Made by a program: the position numbers and the translations under genes
Shown: positions 33,055 to 53,059 of the stretch, in pieces
How positions within the stretch are numbered: the first letter of the stretch is position 1
Layout: each line of letters begins with the position of its first letter
Origin: Flavobacterium litorale
GTDB taxonomy: Bacteria; Bacteroidota; Bacteroidia; Flavobacteriales; Flavobacteriaceae
Assembly: GCF_019613795.1 (NCBI RefSeq)
Contig: NZ_CP080429.1
Coordinates: forward strand, 835,501-899,500
DNA length: 64,000 nt
Direction of reading: 5' to 3'
Notes under the pieces: model-generated
Database searches by the model: none
The model's input: the letters and a program-made list of their open reading frames with translations, nothing else
What the model was told of the DNA's origin: nothing

Positions 33055-33915
33055 TTATTTTGCGTTTTGGTTGTTTTTTATGATGTAAATGTGCGATGAG
33101 TACTCCGAATTTTGTTTTCCTTTGATGTTGGACTTTAATCCGACCCAAAATCCTTTTACAAAATTCATTTTTCCTGTTTTGTATTTTTCCGATAGTAAAC
33201 TCACATAAAAACTATCAAACAGCATGGGGCGTATTTTTACCACCTGCATGCCCTGCATACCAAAAAGTTTTTTGATGGCTGTTTTACTAAAATGCCATAA
33301 GTGTCTCGGCACATCGTAGGCTGCCCAATACGTACCATAGTATTTTGCATCGTACGATTTAAAGTTGGGTACTGCTACAACAATAACGCCATCGGGTTTT
33401 ATAATACGCTTTAGTTCGGTTATTTGTTTTGCTACATCGGGTACATGCTCTAAAACGTGCCATAGGGTTAAGGCATCCAACGAAGCATCTGGAATACTAG
33501 CCAAATCATCAGTAAATACCACACCTTTATTTTGTGCTATGTTTTTGGCTTTTTGACTCGGTTCTATACCCGTTATATCCCAACCGCTTTGTTTGGCTGC
33601 TAGTAAAAAATCGCCTGTACCTGCGCCAATATCCAGTAGCTTTCCTTTTTGGGGTTTAAATTGTTGTACGAGTTTTATTTTATCACGAAGTGCTTTTTGC
33701 TTTACAGTGTGGTACAGTTTCTCAAAAAGGGAACGCTTACCATCGGTATGCGAAATGTAATCGTCGCTCTCATAATAACGCCCTAAATCTGATGCGCTGG
33801 GTTGCGGATGTGTTTTTAAAAGTTGTAGTTCTTCGTTACATAATAAATCGAATGTTTCGCCCGAAACCGAGTGATCTTTTACAGTACAATAAATGTTGGC
33901 GTTGGTAAAGTCCAT
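33055..33915 (-). CDS. Class I SAM-dependent methyltransferase
   Basis: The 286-residue enzyme shows the SAM-binding motif GKLLDIGAGTGDFLLAAK (about residues 89-106), GIEPSQKAKNIAQ as the acidic ribose contact, and LDALTLWHVLEHVPD as the later motif, typical of Methyltransf_11/23 family members. A C-terminal tail follows. The substrate is unknown; similar genes adjacent to mnmG occur in flavobacteria and their role is not established. Its start touches the stop of the lipoprotein gene upstream. Confidence 0.88.
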   Translation of the reverse strand: MDFTNANIYCTVKDHSVSGETFDLLCNEELQLLKTHPQPSASDLGRYYESDDYISHTDGKRSLFEKLYHTVKQKALRDKIKLVQQFKPQKGKLLDIGAGTGDFLLAAKQSGWDITGIEPSQKAKNIAQNKGVVFTDDLASIPDASLDALTLWHVLEHVPDVAKQITELKRIIKPDGVIVVAVPNFKSYDAKYYGTYWAAYDVPRHLWHFSKTAIKKLFGMQGMQVVKIRPMLFDSFYVSLLSEKYKTGKMNFVKGFWVGLKSNIKGKQNSEYSSHIYIIKNNQNAK

Positions 33916-34437
33916 TTAATTATTCAGGTATTCGTCCTTTAATCGCTTTAGGTAGTTTACGGCAATGTTTTGAAACAACGAATCATCCGCTAGGCAATCG
34001 TCATTCGATTCATTAATCATCGATAGGCATATAAATTTAGCCATAGATCCTCTAATATTGGCATCTGTTTCGGCATTGGTAACAATATACTCCGAAGTAT
34101 CAAAATACTTTTCTACCTCTGCATTTTCGTATAAAAAAACTTTGTATCGGCTGCCCTCTACGGTTACCCAATAGCTCACATCCCGATAACTGCCTACATT
34201 GTACTTATCGGCTAAAAACTGCTGAAACGGAATGTTTCTGGGGTTGTTCTCAAACATAAAGGCGGTTAAGCCCTGCTCCTTGCCTAATATTTCTTTTCCG
34301 TTGTTGAGCAATATATAATCGGTAATCTCTACGGTACGCCGTTGTGTAATGCACGATGTAGCAAACGCGAGCATAAAAAACAGCAAAAACCCTCTTTTAA
34401 AAAGGGTTTTTGTAGTATGTTTCACGTGGAACATCAT
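33916..34437 (-). CDS. Small lipoprotein of unknown function
   Basis: The 173-residue product has a basic N-region (HTTKTLFKRG), a hydrophobic stretch and the lipobox FATSC, so it is an envelope lipoprotein. The body is not recognised; it contains YKVFLYENAEVEKYFDTSEY and a Cys pair in the last third. The ATG overlaps the mnmG stop (ATGA), and the methyltransferase gene follows without a gap, so mnmG, this gene and the methyltransferase form an operon. Its first residues (MMFHVKH) are encoded by a parS site, and a terminator-like hairpin sits within codons 10-18. Confidence 0.75.
   Translation of the reverse strand: MMFHVKHTTKTLFKRGFLLFFMLAFATSCITQRRTVEITDYILLNNGKEILGKEQGLTAFMFENNPRNIPFQQFLADKYNVGSYRDVSYWVTVEGSRYKVFLYENAEVEKYFDTSEYIVTNAETDANIRGSMAKFICLSMINESNDDCLADDSLFQNIAVNYLKRLKDEYLNN
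34385..34411 (-). terminator. Terminator-like hairpin inside the lipoprotein gene
   Basis: AAAAACCCT (34385-34393) and AGGGTTTTT (34403-34411) are perfect 9-base arms around 9 bases. On the minus strand the stem ends in TTTTT. It lies 24 bases after the mnmG stop and inside the next open frame, so it could attenuate transcription between them or be a chance effect of the signal-peptide codons. Confidence 0.4.
34418..34433. other. parS site 1
   Basis: TGTTTCACGTGGAACA is the exact reverse complement of the parS consensus TGTTCCACGTGAAACA bound by ParB in Bacillus. It overlaps the start of the lipoprotein gene behind mnmG. Confidence 0.9.
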
Positions 34438-36305
34438 CGTCCCATGTGTATTAATAGTACCGAAACATCACTTGGCGATACACCGCTAATGCGGGATGCT
34501 TGCGATATGGTAACGGGACGTATGTTCTTTAATTTTTCGCGTGCTTCCATCGAGATGGACTTGATTCCATCAAAATTGAAGTTTTCTGGAATTTTTACGT
34601 CCTCTAGCCTATTGAGCTTATCGGCATTGTTTTTTTCTTTTTCGATGTAGCCTGAATATTTTACTTGTATTTCGGCTTGCTCTATTACTTCGTTATCCAA
34701 ATTGTGTTCAGCAATGTATTCCTTTACCTTATCAAAAGCAACAATATCGTTGAGTTCAATTTGTGGTCGTGAAAATAGCTTGAACATTTTATCGGACTGC
34801 GTCATTAACGACGAGTTTTTAGCCTCCAATATTGGGTTAGCTTCTGCAGGGCTAATACTGGTTTCTTTAAAAAAGTGTACAAAAGCATCACTTTGGTCGC
34901 GTTTGCGTTCCATTCTGCGCAAGCGTTCTTCATTAGCCAAACCTATCTCGTAGGATAATGGCGTAAGCCTAAAGTCGGCATTATCTTGTCGTAACAACGT
35001 ACGGTACTCCGCACGCGACGTAAACATCCTATACGGCTCTTCTGTGCCTTTTGTAATCAGGTCGTCTATCAGTACGCCAATATAAGCTTCGTTACGTTTT
35101 AGTATAAAGGGGTCTTTATCGTGTACTTTTAAGTGGGCATTGATACCTGCCATTAAACCTTGCGATGCTGCCTCTTCGTATCCTGTTGTACCATTTATTT
35201 GCCCTGCAAAATATAAGCCCTCTACTAACTTTGTTTCGAGGGTATGCTTCAATTGTGTAGGCGGAAAGTAATCGTACTCTATGGCATAGCCTGGTCGGAA
35301 AAACTTCACGCTCTCAAAGCCTGCTACTGATTTTAATGCTTTGTACTGCACATCTTCGGGTAAGGAAGTAGAGAAACCATTTACATACACTTCTACGGTA
35401 TTCCAGCCTTCGGGTTCTACAAAAAGTTGATGCCTGTCTTTATCGGCAAAGCGATTAATTTTATCTTCGATAGATGGGCAATAACGGGGTCCTAAACTTT
35501 TAATGCGTCCGTTGAACATGGGCGAACGGTCGAAACCTTCGCGCAATACATCGTGTACTGCTTCGGACGTGTACGTCATGTGGCAGGAGCGTTGGTGTGT
35601 TAAGGGTTTTGTTATATCGAGATACGAGAACTTATCGGGATTTTCGTCGCCAGGTTGTTCTATCATTTTAGAGTAATCTAAGGAGCGTCCATCTACACGC
35701 GGTGGTGTACCTGTTTTCATTCTGCCCGCTTCAAAACCTGCCTTTACTAAATCTTCGGTAATACCAAACGATGCTCCTTCGCCTGCTCTACCACCACCAA
35801 AGTTTTTATCGCCAATATGGATTAATCCGTTTAAGAATGTACCATTGGTTAGCACTACGGTTTTGGCTTTTATGGTTAAGCCTAACGATGTTTTTATACC
35901 TGTTACTTTACCCTTTTCGATAACAATACCCGAAACCATTTCTTGATAAAAATCGAGGTTATTGGTTTGCTCTAACATCAATCGCCACTCTTCGGCAAAG
36001 CGCATTCGGTCGCTCTGTACGCGCGGACTCCACATAGCGGGTCCTTTGGATTTGTTGAGCATCCTGAACTGTATGGCTGTTTTATCGGATACTATACCCG
36101 AGTAACCACCCAAAGCATCTATTTCACGTACTATTTGCCCTTTGGCAATACCGCCCATAGCGGGATTGCACGACATTTGGGCAATGTTTTGCAAGCTCAT
36201 AGTAACCAACAAGGTTTTAGAACCCATGTTGGCAGCAGCAGCAGCAGCCTCCGAACCAGCGTGCCCTGCACCTACTACTATAACATCATATACATCCTGA
36301 AACAT
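34434..36305 (-). CDS. mnmG: tRNA uridine carboxymethylaminomethyl-modification enzyme MnmG
   Basis: The 623-residue protein has the FAD-binding DVIVVGAGHAGSEAAAAAA at the N-terminus, MSCNPAMGGIAKGQIVREID, FRMLNKSKGPAMWSPR and the late FAGQINGTTGYEEAASQGLM, all standard for MnmG/GidA. With MnmE it modifies the wobble uridine of certain tRNAs. The ATG has a rare clear Shine-Dalgarno (AGAAGGAG, 7 bases upstream), which fixes the start. The gene is bracketed by parS sites: one just past its end and three upstream. It opens a three-gene operon. Confidence 0.97.
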   Translation of the reverse strand: MFQDVYDVIVVGAGHAGSEAAAAAANMGSKTLLVTMSLQNIAQMSCNPAMGGIAKGQIVREIDALGGYSGIVSDKTAIQFRMLNKSKGPAMWSPRVQSDRMRFAEEWRLMLEQTNNLDFYQEMVSGIVIEKGKVTGIKTSLGLTIKAKTVVLTNGTFLNGLIHIGDKNFGGGRAGEGASFGITEDLVKAGFEAGRMKTGTPPRVDGRSLDYSKMIEQPGDENPDKFSYLDITKPLTHQRSCHMTYTSEAVHDVLREGFDRSPMFNGRIKSLGPRYCPSIEDKINRFADKDRHQLFVEPEGWNTVEVYVNGFSTSLPEDVQYKALKSVAGFESVKFFRPGYAIEYDYFPPTQLKHTLETKLVEGLYFAGQINGTTGYEEAASQGLMAGINAHLKVHDKDPFILKRNEAYIGVLIDDLITKGTEEPYRMFTSRAEYRTLLRQDNADFRLTPLSYEIGLANEERLRRMERKRDQSDAFVHFFKETSISPAEANPILEAKNSSLMTQSDKMFKLFSRPQIELNDIVAFDKVKEYIAEHNLDNEVIEQAEIQVKYSGYIEKEKNNADKLNRLEDVKIPENFNFDGIKSISMEAREKLKNIRPVTISQASRISGVSPSDVSVLLIHMGR

Positions 36306-36328
36306 TTATTCTCCTTCTTTTTATTTGT

Positions 36329-36344
36329 TGTTCCACGTGGAACT
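36329..36344. other. parS site 2
   Basis: TGTTCCACGTGGAACT differs from the palindromic 16-mer form only at the last base. It lies in the mnmG upstream region. Confidence 0.8.
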
Positions 36345-36373
36345 TTTTGTATATCGCACTCTAAAAATTAGTT

Positions 36374-36395
36374 ATGTGTTCCACGTGGAACACAT
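36374..36395. other. parS site 3
   Basis: The core TGTTCCACGTGGAACA (36377-36392) is a perfect palindrome that extends to 22 bases (36374-36395). It is 48 bases from site 2. Confidence 0.9.
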
Positions 36396-36415
36396 AAATG
36401 CCGGAACAAAACAAC

Positions 36416-36835
36416 CTAACGTTCCACGTGGAACATCTGTATTTTCTCTTCCTCTTTACTACGCATTAGCGCAGCGTCATCTTCTGCTTTATCTTTGTAA
36501 CCACAGTAGTGTAACACTCCATGTGCCATAACGCGTTTTAGTTCTTCTGTAAAAGCTACACCGTACTCTGAGGCATTATCACGCACCCGCTCTACCGATA
36601 TAAAAATATCGCCGCTAATGAGGTTGCCCATCGTATAATCAAAACTTATAATGTCTGTTAAGGTATCGTGGTTTAGGAACTCTATATTTTTCTGGAGCAA
36701 GTAATCGTCATCGCAAAAAACATAGTTTATTTCGCCCGTAGTTTTCTCTTCCGATGTTATTACACGCTCAATCCAATCTTCAAATTGGGCTTCGTTATCC
36801 AGCTCAAAATCGGTTTCGTAATTAAAACTAATCAT
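36416..36835 (-). CDS. ybeY: Endoribonuclease YbeY (rRNA maturation)
   Basis: The 139-residue protein matches YbeY: an N-terminal beta segment, NTD-like DTLTDIISFDY, GDIFISVERVRDNASEYGV, then the metal motif MAHGVLHYCGYKDKAEDD. The usual third His of HGxLHLxGYDH is replaced by Lys-Asp, as often in this phylum. YbeY acts in 16S rRNA 3' maturation and ribosome quality control. Its last residues (MFHVER) are encoded by a parS site. It overlaps the preceding DUF4175 gene by 8 bases, so the two are translationally coupled. Confidence 0.92.
   Translation of the reverse strand: MISFNYETDFELDNEAQFEDWIERVITSEEKTTGEINYVFCDDDYLLQKNIEFLNHDTLTDIISFDYTMGNLISGDIFISVERVRDNASEYGVAFTEELKRVMAHGVLHYCGYKDKAEDDAALMRSKEEEKIQMFHVER
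36420..36435. other. parS site 4
   Basis: CGTTCCACGTGGAACA matches the palindromic form with one difference at the first base. It lies within the last codons of ybeY. Confidence 0.8.
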
Positions 36836-39800
36836 CTTTCCTAAAATAGGTTTGCACCCTTTGGTTAAAATTCGGGCGCAAAGGTAAGGCTTGGCGGTTT
36901 AATATTTCAACACTATTTAAATATTCTTTTAAGGCTTCGGGCAACTGTTTTACCTGACTGTTAAACTCCTTACGGTTGGTTTGCGACTGCCTTTTCTTCT
37001 CTTCGCCCTGCTGTTGTATGGCTTTATCGAGTTTTAAAAGCTCGTGTTTTAGGTTTTGCATGCGCTCCATGGTTTCGTTACGGAAACCTTTGTTGAGCAA
37101 CTGCTTTTCTATTTCTTTCATTTGGCGCATGGCGTTCTGCCCTGCTTTGCCCAAACCTTCTTTCTCTAGGGCTTTTTGTAAGGCTTCTCGAAGTTGTTGT
37201 TGCTCTTTATAAATTTCAAGGAGTTTTCCTGCATCGCCTTCCGAGCCATCTTGCCCTTCGCCCCCTTCGCCTTTACCGCCAGGTCCTTCGCCGTTGGGTT
37301 TGCCTTGTTCGCCTTCTTGTCCTTCCTCGCCTTCCTTTTTACCGTCTTTCATACCCTTTTTCATCTTCTCGGATAGACCTTCTTGCTTCTGGATAATATC
37401 GGGTAGCTGCATACCCTGCCCCTGCCCTGGCATGGGTTTGCCCATACCTTGCCCTTGTAGTTGCATTTGCATGCTGTTAAGCATATCACTAAGCATGTCC
37501 GCTAGTTTATTTGCCGATGTTACCGCATATTGCTGGCTCGATACGCCACGTGGTACTTGGTTATCGGCAAGGTCGGTTAAGGCTTTGTCCATATAATAAT
37601 GTACTTCGCCTACCTCCTTAGTAACTTCTTCGGTAATTTTTGGATTACGAAGCGATAATGCAAAGATACTATCGTCTACATGGCGGAATTGTTGTTTTAA
37701 ATCTTGTTGGCGTTTTAGGTATTTACTAAACGATGCCGAGCGTGAGGTGCTAACTTTAAATTGCTCCATTACGTCTTCTTGCGAGAAAGAATATGCTAGT
37801 AAGTTATCTAATATCTGGCGGAGCATTTTTACATCTTCCTGCATCATTTCCATATCGGCACTCATCATCATTTGCATCATTTTGCCACCCATTTGTTTCA
37901 TCTTTTCGCCTGCCGATTTTTGCTTGGGTTTGGCTGCACCTTTATTTTGTTTTTGCAACTCCTCCTTTGCCTTTTCCATATCTTCCTCTATGTTTTCCTC
38001 CTCCAATTCGTCGGTAGGTAAATCCATAGGTTTTTTAAGCTCTTCATTCTGCTTTTCGAGTTCGCGCATCTCTTCTTGCATCTTATCAAACTCCTTATTA
38101 ATGTCCTCTTGCTTTTCAGCAGAATTCTCTTTATCGTCGGCAAGTTGCTCCTGCTTTTCGCCTAACTTTTGCAATTTATCCGCAAGTTGTTCGGCTTTTT
38201 TCTCTACATAAAAACGCTTGGTAAGCTCTACCAGTTGCTCTAAATTTTTAGTTTGATTCTTCGCTTTTTGTTTGAATTTATCAATCTTTTCAGCAAGTTC
38301 TTCTTTCTTAATTTTATCGGCAAGCTCTTTAAGTTCGTCCAGTAGTTTTTTGTTTTTCTCTGCCTCTTCTTCATTCTTATCAAGACGTTTCATAAGTTCT
38401 TCTTTAAACTCGTCTTTCTTTTCGGGGTTAAACTGTTCCAAGTTTTCTTCTAATTTCTTAGAAAACTCTTTCATCATATCTTCCTGCTGCTTTTGCCTGT
38501 TGATGAATTCCTGAATTTTCTTTTGGTCTTTAAAATCAAGCTCCGTTTTCTCCTTGTTCATTTTACGGAGTTTATCTAACTCAGTAAGTTGCTTGTCTTG
38601 ATTTTTAATCGACTTTTCGAGGCTATTTATATTGCTGTTTTGCTCTTGCAATACTTGTTGTTCCTTTTCGTCTGCAGTTAACTCTCTATTCGAAAACACA
38701 GACGATTTTGTACTTTTATAATTATGTACGGCATCGTTATCAAACACTTCAAAGTAATATTCGTAATTAATACCTGCTTTAATATCCAATCCTTCGGGGA
38801 ATGTATATACAAAGCGGTCGTAGGTGTCTTTTTGTACGGGTATAGTAAATTTTTTAGCACTATCGGGGGTATCCTGCGGATAATAGACCAATCGTAACTT
38901 GGTAAGCCCATAATCGTCGGATACTTGCCCTACCAATACCTCTTGCTTTAGCTTTAAGCTATCGGGTGCGGTATTAACTGTTATGGTTGGGTATTGATCT
39001 TTTATAGTGGTTATTTGGTACTGTAATTTTTCGTGATGCTTTACTTTTTTGTTAGATGTAAGTATCTGATATTCAGTATTATTGTATATGTTTTTAGTCA
39101 GTACAAAATCGTTCGCCGTGTTCTCAAAAGGAACAATTCCCTTATCCGAAGCCCACTCTACACCCGTAGTTGCTAATGCTTTAACTTTCCATGTAACTTT
39201 AGTGCCTTCGGGTACTACGGCATTACCTGTACCGCGCACAACCTCATCAGTTTTGCGCAGGTAGTTAGGATAATCTAATACCATCTCGAAATTGGCAATG
39301 GTAGGTACAGCAATTACATTTAGTTGGTACGGTTGCGATATTACATTGTTAGCCGTAAGCTGAAATAAAATATCTTTTGATGGCTTCTCAAACGTATATT
39401 CAAATACACCCGAACCTGTATTTTGCAAGTAATAGTTCTCCTTACCTATGGTTATCATGGCATTTTCAGGTATTACATTACCCTGCGTACGTACTTCGAG
39501 CTTAAAATCTTTGTCCTGTTGTGCCGTAAGGTTTTTATTTACCAGCACAAACTCAAACGGTGCGGGGGGTGCATAATGTTTATCGTAGTGCACTACCCTA
39601 TCAAAACTTTGGGTAATAACCCCGCTGTTACCGCTTATCATAAAAAATAAAATAAGCAATAAGGGTACGGCGGCATAGGGTACGTATTTTACATTCTTTT
39701 TAAAACTAACGGCATTGGTAAACGGTACAGGTTGCAGGCTGTTTGCCTTTTGCTCGATGGAAGCAGCAAGTAGCTCCGATTGGTACGATTCGCCACTAAG

Positions 39801-40139
39801 CTGCAAAAAGTTAGTTAGCTTATCGGAAACCTCCGTAAAATGATTCCCGATAATTGCCGATGCTTGTTTATAGTCGATACCCTTTTGTAGTTTAAACAAT
39901 TTAAACAATGGGAAAAGTATAAACCGAAACAATAAAAAGGCTTCTACCCCGATAAACACCCAAAACAATGCGGTACGCCCTGTTTGGGGCAACCACAAAA
40001 AGTATTCTATTAGTAGGGTTACTATAAAATACAGCAAGCCAAGACCCACAAAAAAGATACTCCCCCGAATAAGCTCGTTGGTGTAATACTTTTTTATAAA
40101 GTCCTCCAGCTTTTGATATATACTATTTTTTGCTTCCAA
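36828..40139 (-). CDS. Large DUF4175-like membrane protein with coiled coils
   Basis: The 1103-residue protein has two membrane segments near the N-terminus (about residues 25-45 and 58-76) and a third at about 150-166, a long beta-rich periplasmic part (residues 170-480), then about 400 residues of charged coiled coil (EKQEQLADDKENSAEKQEDI and similar), a Gly/Gln/Met-rich patch near residue 910 and a Glu/Gly-rich patch near 945-970. The domain order fits DUF4175-type Bacteroidota proteins, of unknown function. It overlaps ybeY, so they share a transcript. Confidence 0.75.
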   Translation of the reverse strand: MEAKNSIYQKLEDFIKKYYTNELIRGSIFFVGLGLLYFIVTLLIEYFLWLPQTGRTALFWVFIGVEAFLLFRFILFPLFKLFKLQKGIDYKQASAIIGNHFTEVSDKLTNFLQLSGESYQSELLAASIEQKANSLQPVPFTNAVSFKKNVKYVPYAAVPLLLILFFMISGNSGVITQSFDRVVHYDKHYAPPAPFEFVLVNKNLTAQQDKDFKLEVRTQGNVIPENAMITIGKENYYLQNTGSGVFEYTFEKPSKDILFQLTANNVISQPYQLNVIAVPTIANFEMVLDYPNYLRKTDEVVRGTGNAVVPEGTKVTWKVKALATTGVEWASDKGIVPFENTANDFVLTKNIYNNTEYQILTSNKKVKHHEKLQYQITTIKDQYPTITVNTAPDSLKLKQEVLVGQVSDDYGLTKLRLVYYPQDTPDSAKKFTIPVQKDTYDRFVYTFPEGLDIKAGINYEYYFEVFDNDAVHNYKSTKSSVFSNRELTADEKEQQVLQEQNSNINSLEKSIKNQDKQLTELDKLRKMNKEKTELDFKDQKKIQEFINRQKQQEDMMKEFSKKLEENLEQFNPEKKDEFKEELMKRLDKNEEEAEKNKKLLDELKELADKIKKEELAEKIDKFKQKAKNQTKNLEQLVELTKRFYVEKKAEQLADKLQKLGEKQEQLADDKENSAEKQEDINKEFDKMQEEMRELEKQNEELKKPMDLPTDELEEENIEEDMEKAKEELQKQNKGAAKPKQKSAGEKMKQMGGKMMQMMMSADMEMMQEDVKMLRQILDNLLAYSFSQEDVMEQFKVSTSRSASFSKYLKRQQDLKQQFRHVDDSIFALSLRNPKITEEVTKEVGEVHYYMDKALTDLADNQVPRGVSSQQYAVTSANKLADMLSDMLNSMQMQLQGQGMGKPMPGQGQGMQLPDIIQKQEGLSEKMKKGMKDGKKEGEEGQEGEQGKPNGEGPGGKGEGGEGQDGSEGDAGKLLEIYKEQQQLREALQKALEKEGLGKAGQNAMRQMKEIEKQLLNKGFRNETMERMQNLKHELLKLDKAIQQQGEEKKRQSQTNRKEFNSQVKQLPEALKEYLNSVEILNRQALPLRPNFNQRVQTYFRKDD

Positions 40140-51633: not shown

Positions 51634-52259
51634 CCACTCCCTCCTATTCCATTTTAAAGTTGTTAACATTTATTAAAAATACTATAATAACTTTTTTAAA
51701 TTTTAAAATAAAATGATGGTTATTATAGCGTGTTAATAAGAGGTAAAACTTTATTGTATTTTTTTGCATTACTTACTTAACGGTATTTATACAAAATAAT
51801 CAACAATGTTAACTTAATGTAAAATACTGTATCGTAACCATTTTTACAACACTTAGGGTAGTTATTAACAATGGTTAACAACAAAAAATGCTAGTGTTTA
51901 TTTAATAATTTACCTTATTAATTACTGTTAATAACTGCTAGTAAACTGCTGATAAAAAAATATGAAAAAGTAAAAACTTTGCTTGCATTTTTAGTTTTAC
52001 TTTCTGTATGTAAAAAAATTGTTAAGAACCTGAATATTTTTATAAAATTCGTTATCAACTTATCAACAATATCATTCATTTTGTAACTACTTTATTTACA
52101 ATAGGTTTTAAAATTTATAAACATTACAGTATTTTAACATATATATTACTATATTAATGGCGACACCCACCCTAAAAAAGATTACCGTATTGAGTACTAG
52201 TATATTAGTAATTGTTTGGTAACTTTGCCCGAAATAAACAACATAACACAACAAGAATA
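51634..52259. other. Long AT-rich gene-free stretch (candidate origin or control region)
   Basis: No coding signal is seen between DUF2007 and rpiB. The sequence is markedly AT-rich and contains five 9-mers of the form TTAT(C/T)AAC(A/T) or complement: TGTTAATAA at 51731-51739 and 51926-51934, TTATTAACA at 51862-51870, TTATCAACT at 52052-52060 and TTATCAACA at 52060-52068. These resemble, but do not equal, the DnaA box TTATnCACA. The rpiB promoter box TAACTTTG (52220-52227) lies at the right end. Confidence 0.6.
52220..52227 (+). promoter_or_regulatory. rpiB -7 promoter box
   Basis: TAACTTTG fits TAnnTTTG, 32 bases before the rpiB ATG. Confidence 0.4.
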
Positions 52260-52691
52260 ATGAAAATTTCGATAGGAAACGACCACGCTGCTCCCGACTA
52301 TAAAAAAGCAATTGTACAGCACCTAGAGCAAAAAGGCATAACCGTTATTAACCATGGTACTGATACTTTTGATAGCGTAGATTACCCCGATTTTGTATAC
52401 CCTGTAGCCAACGATGTAACCAATGGTACTGCCGATTTTGGTATACTATTGTGTGGTAGTGGTAATGGCGTATCTATGACGGCTAACAAGTACTCCAATA
52501 TTCGTGCTGCACTATGTTGGACCAAAGAAATTACCGAACTGGCCCGCCAGCATAACGATGCTAATATATTAAGTATACCAGCTCGTTATACCTCCGTACA
52601 ACAAGCTATAGCAATGGTAGATGCTTTTATTAACACTGATTTTGAAGGTGGACGCCACCAAAACAGAGTTGCTAAAATTGCTTGTAAGTAA
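52260..52691 (+). CDS. rpiB: Ribose-5-phosphate isomerase B
   Basis: The 143-residue enzyme starts MKISIGNDHAAPDYKKAIVQ, the family N-terminus (a longer frame from 52212 adds unrelated residues). The active-site Cys lies in FGILLCGSGNGVSMTANKY and the conserved NDANILSIPAR follows. It interconverts ribose 5-phosphate and ribulose 5-phosphate. A terminator follows, facing a toxin-antitoxin pair on the other strand. Confidence 0.94.
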   Translation: MKISIGNDHAAPDYKKAIVQHLEQKGITVINHGTDTFDSVDYPDFVYPVANDVTNGTADFGILLCGSGNGVSMTANKYSNIRAALCWTKEITELARQHNDANILSIPARYTSVQQAIAMVDAFINTDFEGGRHQNRVAKIACK

Positions 52692-52741: not shown

Positions 52742-53059
52742 TTATTTATTACGTTTGAGCTTAATGGGATTTTGCCGAGTATCGAAAACATCAGCAATTT
52801 TAATTAATTGTAGCTTTTTGTCTACCGAATAGATAATTTTATAGTTATCGCAAAGTAAACTAAAATAGTCAATTTCACGATTTAAAAGTAATTCCTCACG
52901 CTGGCTAATTTCAGGATTATTTATTAGTCTATCAGGTTCAGAAATTATTTTTTGAACTATTTTCTTGGCAAAATTTGTACTAGCATTTTCACAATAATAT
53001 TCAAATATTTTATCCAATTCGCTTTTCGCAAAGTCAGACCAAACAACTTTAAAACCCAT
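52742..53059 (-). CDS. RelE/ParE-type toxin
   Basis: The 105-residue basic protein has the RelE/ParE fold pattern: FKVVWSDFAKSELDKIFEYY with the conserved helix, then NYKIIYSVDKKLQLIKIADV and DTRQNP near the C-terminus. ParE-like toxins inhibit gyrase; RelE-like toxins cut mRNA at the ribosome; which one this is cannot be decided. Its ATG overlaps the stop of the antitoxin gene upstream (TAATG), the usual coupling of such pairs. Confidence 0.85.
   Translation of the reverse strand: MGFKVVWSDFAKSELDKIFEYYCENASTNFAKKIVQKIISEPDRLINNPEISQREELLLNREIDYFSLLCDNYKIIYSVDKKLQLIKIADVFDTRQNPIKLKRNK

Follow-up and report, generated by a model that had tools for sequence, protein, structure and literature searches.

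Genes and parS-like sites at the mnmG locus

We analysed a stretch of 64,000 nucleotides (the window, positions 835,501-899,500) of the genome of Flavobacterium litorale, which is a single contig of 2,725,095 bp and 99.9% complete. Four parS-like sites bracket mnmG (gidA), three of them between the start of mnmG and the end of ybeY and one behind the mnmG stop codon (Table 1). The preliminary description had reported an exact reverse complement of the ParB site consensus at 34418 and three close variants at 36329, 36377 and 36420, and all four were found where it had placed them. The first lies immediately 3' of the mnmG stop codon and overlaps the opening codons of the open reading frame that follows (33916-34437). 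The palindrome at 36377 reads TGTTCCACGTGGAACA, and the sites at 36329 and 36420 each differ at one outer base; its perfect symmetry, claimed for 22 bases, is real but extends over 26 bp.

Table 1. Features of the locus and of the origin candidate (window coordinates).
Feature	Position	Strand	Remarks
Class I methyltransferase	33055..33915	-	homologue adjoins parS sites in a Capnocytophaga MAG with mnmG elsewhere
parS-like site 1	34418..34433	-	exact TGTTCCACGTGAAACA match on the minus strand
mnmG (gidA)	34434..36305	-	TIGR00136, 834.8 bits; flanked by sites
parS-like site 2	36329..36344		ybeY-mnmG gap; one outer-base mismatch
parS-like site 3	36372..36397		perfect 26-bp palindrome enclosing the core 36377-36392
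ybeY (rRNA maturation RNase)	36416..36835	-	TIGR00043; upstream neighbour of mnmG
parS-like site 4	36420..36435		overlaps the 3' end (final codons) of ybeY; one outer-base mismatch
oriC candidate	51731..52123		AT-rich DUF2007-rpiB intergenic stretch; nine TTATCAACA-like 9-mers
rpiB	52260..52691	+	marker gene adjoining the oriC candidate; linkage with mnmG in relatives

The 16-bp palindrome TGTTNCACGTGNAACA, characteristic of parS, is present in full in two of the sites and with one mismatch in the other two. Neighbouring sites 2-3 and 3-4 start 48 and 43 bp apart. With up to three mismatches allowed, the window holds 8 matches (the four sites on both strands) versus 0.40 expected, and none of 100 dinucleotide shuffles of the window reached this number. 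In the whole genome, exact GTTNCACGTGNAAC was found five times, four of them in the window, where 0.11 would be expected from base composition (38% G+C). The sole other genome site within one mismatch is at 1,493,248, within an open reading frame, and the genome motif scan detected no parS within two mismatches in the par operon. An even spread of the motif over the genome, which had been named as evidence against a centromere, was looked for; the motif turned out to be confined to the mnmG locus and position 1,493,248.

Conservation of the sites beside mnmG

A search with the MnmG protein of the window yielded 588 confirmed candidates, the best 80 of which (a sample biased to close relatives, with up to 84% identity to named Flavobacterium) were analysed. 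An exact site was present within 1.2 kb of mnmG at 79 of these 80 loci and on both sides at 67, and no exact sites were detected inside mnmG at any of them. There were 190 exact sites in 337 kb near mnmG versus none in 1,253 kb further out, with a boundary that was first set at 700 bp (181 near, 9 far) and widened post hoc to 1.2 kb, all nine far sites having been found within 1.2 kb before the widening. The adjacent spacings below 250 bp (117, from 168 distinct loci) are concentrated at 35-50 bp, and all but two are at least 33 bp; helical phasing of adjacent sites is weak and confounded by kinship.

Among the 40 nearest genomes (F. litorale included), exact GTTNCACGTGNAAC was present in 37 and ParB in 39; the sole genome that lacks ParB (G038, 300 kb) also lacks a site. 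In 16 other genomes among those listed, every site lies within 2 kb of mnmG. The placement at mnmG was then followed across the phylum in 69 genomes other than that of F. litorale, using mnmG with 1.5-kb flanks (a few of them shorter). An exact site was found at mnmG in 62 of the 69 (family 6/6, order 1/1, class 6/9, rest of the phylum 49/53); one genome (G054) has four sites, one of them inside mnmG. Of the 53 genomes from the rest of the phylum, none showed ybeY or the methyltransferase in the 1.5 kb on either side of mnmG, and 49 have sites nonetheless. That the sites are chance matches or relics with no present function might be suggested by some ParB-bearing lineages that lack exact copies. 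Such a reading is hard to reconcile with 1.25 Mb of outer flanks devoid of sites, with the recurrence over the phylum sample and with the joint lack of site and ParB in the only ParB-less genome of the 40, and we give it next to no credence.

The palindromes can fold, and at the best 80 of the 588 loci many sites end 6-16 nt ahead of the mnmG start codon; the downstream sites start at a median of 12 nt past the last sense codon, stop codon counted. This arrangement would suit RNA stem-loops around mnmG with an effect on termination, translation or the stability of the mRNA. At pair 5/12 on the mnmG sense strand, however, the RNA-breaking C-A combination occurs in 44 of the 190 sites and the RNA-tolerated T-G in 25 of the 190 (counts uncorrected for kinship), and RNA hairpins are disfavoured because the pair-breaking C-A outnumbers the wobble T-G. 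The sites, moreover, come in clusters, and in one MAG they are separated from mnmG, which makes RNA stem-loops a very improbable explanation.

Some loci deserve mention for other reasons. A dozen or so sites precede mnmG at one Flavobacterium locus (L103), among them four copies of TGTTCCACATGGAACA spaced 116-118 bp apart, a group that looks like a tandem array. At two other loci (L134, L151), one of a Kordia MAG and the other of a Flavobacteriaceae isolate, variant sites T/CGTTCCACATGGAACA with an altered centre lie upstream of mnmG. Two MAG records (L109, L110), named Limnohabitans and Chitinophaga pinensis in their titles, encode MnmG proteins 81% and 84% identical to that of the window, and these names may be wrong.

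Exceptions and an apparent separation of the sites from mnmG

Seven of the 69 genomes of the phylum sample are without exact sites at mnmG. Three (G070, G084 and G092) have no exact site genome-wide and only one-mismatch variants, which are at mnmG. A site pair was found between murQ and an mfd-like open reading frame in G051, and behind a SIS-domain open reading frame of the same kind in G071. Two exact sites were present in G101, one of them within a threonine synthase (thrC) open reading frame, as is the single exact site of G074; the thrC-internal sites may be due to chance. Of the 40 nearest genomes, G028 and G033 have ParB and no exact site anywhere.

The single miss among the best 80 of the 588 MnmG loci is a Capnocytophaga MAG in which ParB is present. 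It has three exact sites (L369, 1273-1586) on a contig other than that of mnmG, next to a methyltransferase that is 55% identical to the one beside the sites of the window. Its mnmG is without sites, and no ybeY or methyltransferase gene was detected around it. In this MAG, mnmG may have been relocated while the centromere stayed put (one MAG; misbinning is possible). Because the sites occur here without mnmG, the position rather than mnmG itself probably matters, and mnmG more likely marks the place than accounts for it. The same MAG bears on the proposal that the sites are operators for the control of mnmG by ParB or by a different regulator, so that regulation would explain the conserved position. 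Sites are indeed conserved at positions only a few bases away from the ends of the gene, but some sites lie behind mnmG, in the MAG the sites and mnmG each occur without the other, and the sequence matches the parS consensus exactly; we therefore regard operators as unlikely.

Position relative to the replication origin

In F. litorale, dnaA is at genome position 25, 870 kb from the sites. The preliminary description had considered the segment probably origin-proximal, and this is supported by a cluster of DnaA-box-like sequences in the window and by a GC-skew reversal in five genomes. The cluster lies in the DUF2007-rpiB intergenic stretch, where TTATCAACA-like 9-mers reach 9 per 600 bp, the highest density in the 864 kb scanned (runner-up 5), although the count is biased towards this region as TTATCAACA was picked after reading it. 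The classical DnaA box, TTATCCACA, does not cluster at the oriC candidate with one mismatch allowed. We examined 30 rpiB loci from 38 genomes with an rpiB match; 12 of them (that of F. litorale included) have at least five TTATCAACA-like boxes in 600 bp, and at four there is no such box. The two genes mnmG and rpiB are on the same contig in 31 of the 40 genomes and at most 25 kb apart in 26 of these 31 (the outlier is G034 with 420 kb). A ParE-type toxin gene (PF05016, window 52742-53059) adjoins the oriC candidate, and a small open reading frame seemingly upstream of it, noticed by eye, is a possible antitoxin.

Total GC skew gave the best origin fit at 880-900 kb in F. litorale (t 3.4-3.6). 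For G009 the best fit was at 1,040-1,050 kb (t 6.9), and for G036 it was at 760-780 kb (t 4.4), the sites of this genome being at 749 kb. In G009, the cumulative skew, followed over 40 kb, has its minimum at 1,040,000, the box cluster begins at 1,040,034 and rpiB, beside it, is at 1,040,728. In two genomes of the phylum from outside the class (G044 and G102), all five stretches to the left of mnmG have negative skew, and to the right the skew is positive in five of five stretches (G044) or in four of five with the fifth about zero (G102), at a resolution set by the nearest stretches, which are 80 kb from mnmG. GC skew thus reverses at or near the parS-mnmG locus in all five genomes sampled.

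Total GC skew turns near the sites, but gene direction and AT skew partly disagree. In F. litorale, the best fit of gene direction was at 1.25-1.28 Mb (t 1.8, weak, with the parS-mnmG locus close behind at t 1.5). In G009 it was at 1.27-1.30 Mb (t 3.2, the locus ranking 62 of 346), and in G036 it was at the parS-mnmG locus itself. AT skew placed the origin elsewhere in all three genomes fitted (F. litorale, G009 and G036), the skew at four-fold sites (GC4, TA4) was uninformative in F. litorale, and a stretch of N around 1.66 Mb disturbed a scan for the lowest GC. Total GC skew is the only measure that agrees throughout with an origin near the locus. From these sequence features, the parS-mnmG locus is likely near the origin, with the DUF2007-rpiB stretch as a candidate for oriC itself. 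The sites are, as is typical of parS, clustered near oriC (here the candidate, as indicated by total GC skew and DnaA-box evidence) and rare elsewhere.

ParA and ParB

One ParB above the family cut-off was found in the genome of F. litorale, at 138,447 (TIGR00180, 171 bits), with the N-terminal, HTH and dimerisation domains. The open reading frame directly upstream encodes a ParA-type ATPase (AAA_31, 230 bits), the expected partner. Residues were numbered by gapless placement on the residue numbers given in the available text of PMC7383237, which sets the parS-type recognition pair R173/G201 against the Noc-type pair Q173/R201. On this numbering, the ParB of F. litorale has the parS-type pair, R173/G201, and further Q162, G170, K171, N178 and R204; it carries K in place of S at position 172, and K at 184. 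The lack of a ParB homologue, which would have spoken against the sites being parS, is excluded by this protein.

The single ParB match also fits the earlier remark that neither parA nor parB is in the window and that ParB would act from elsewhere, its gene being about 730 kb from the sites. The par operon is about 749 kb from the oriC candidate (27.5% of 2.725 Mb), i.e., outside the usual ori domain according to the rule on the position of par operons relative to this domain in the available part of PMC7022226. Among six single-contig genomes of the 40 nearest, parB and mnmG are 731 kb apart in F. litorale (of 2.73 Mb), 851 kb in G009 (of 3.45 Mb), about 897 kb in G019 (of 3.0 Mb, rounded), about 1.18 Mb in G026 (of 3.1 Mb, rounded), about 796 kb in G036 (of 2.84 Mb, treated as a circle) and only 169 kb in G034 (of 1.9 Mb, rounded), so that five of the six, but not all, have parAB outside the ori domain. 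In the 69 genomes of the phylum sample, no ParA or ParB was detected up to 1.5 kb from mnmG, and none was detected in flanks of up to 10 kb at the best 80 of the 588 MnmG loci.

The sites as a probable chromosomal centromere

We consider it very probable that the four sites are chromosomal parS, i.e., nucleation sites for a ParB that is supplied by a distant parAB operon. ParB from this operon would bind the four sites, load there as a CTP clamp and slide or spread across mnmG and its neighbours. Situated some 15 kb from the oriC candidate, the ParB complex would be drawn by ParA after origin firing, and this movement would separate the sister origins. We infer binding, clamp sliding and ParA-driven movement from established knowledge of ParABS systems and not from the sites alone. 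The position of the centromere is probably inherited, having been kept in place while parAB sits elsewhere.

In Firmicutes and Proteobacteria, a gidA-gidB-parA-parB cluster is found near oriC, with parS near gidA/mnmG. At the locus described here, by contrast, parAB is far off and only the sites are by mnmG; if that linkage is right, the mnmG-parS pair may be a remnant of an older gidA-parAB cluster which parAB left. The Spo0J-parS system of Bacillus subtilis and the ParB-parS system of Caulobacter crescentus share with that of F. litorale the 16-bp site, the ParB domains, the parS-type residues and the clustering of sites near oriC (here a probable one). They differ in that here parAB is outside the ori domain and the sites bracket mnmG.

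The available text of PMC10197239 describes parS clusters located at ori for the 12 genomes it covers, with ori calls that combined parS clusters with GC skew. Two of these genomes, Bacteroides caecimuris and Muribaculum intestinale, are Bacteroidetes too; the genes beside their sites go unnamed in this part of the source, and no occurrence of 'mnmG' was counted in the paper. The presence of parS near an origin is ordinary. In the literature searched, we found no paper that combines 'parS sites' with 'Flavobacterium' or with 'mnmG', and no account of a phylum-wide placement of parS at mnmG with parAB apart. Priority is uncertain because Livny et al. 2007, reportedly the main survey of parS sites, may contain an earlier description. 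The analysis locates the probable centromere together with a specific oriC candidate in a lineage in which dnaA is no guide, and it suggests that a motif combined with a gene could serve as a rule for finding origins across a phylum.

Condensin and the wider distribution of the arrangement

In the species studied, SMC-ScpAB is recruited at parS. No SMC above the cut-off was found in the genome of F. litorale (three weak matches) and ScpA was detected in none of the 40 genomes; a SMC-ScpAB that could be loaded by ParB was thus not seen in these searches, unlike in the systems of B. subtilis and C. crescentus. This agrees with the two Bacteroidetes of PMC10197239, for which its available text gives no known condensin, and it also states that ori is not always at dnaA. 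The results point to a natural ParABS system apparently without SMC-ScpAB, in which the roles of ParB and of condensin could be studied separately.

Whether Bacteroidota as a whole have an old, fixed centromere, with parS at the flanks of mnmG by oriC, an unlinked parAB and no SMC-ScpAB, seems to us evenly balanced, as the mnmG placement of parS was examined phylum-wide and the distance of parAB and the absence of ScpA in the order only, from which the extension to the phylum is an extrapolation. If true, this would be a split, condensin-independent ParABS system whose position outlasted the reshuffling of neighbouring genes, and the sites would provide a simple sequence mark of the origin for draft and metagenomic genomes.

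Upstream of ybeY, the window encodes a DUF4175 protein of 1103 amino acids (36828-40139) with a weak match to an SMC model (E 2e-5), which is probably due to a coiled coil.
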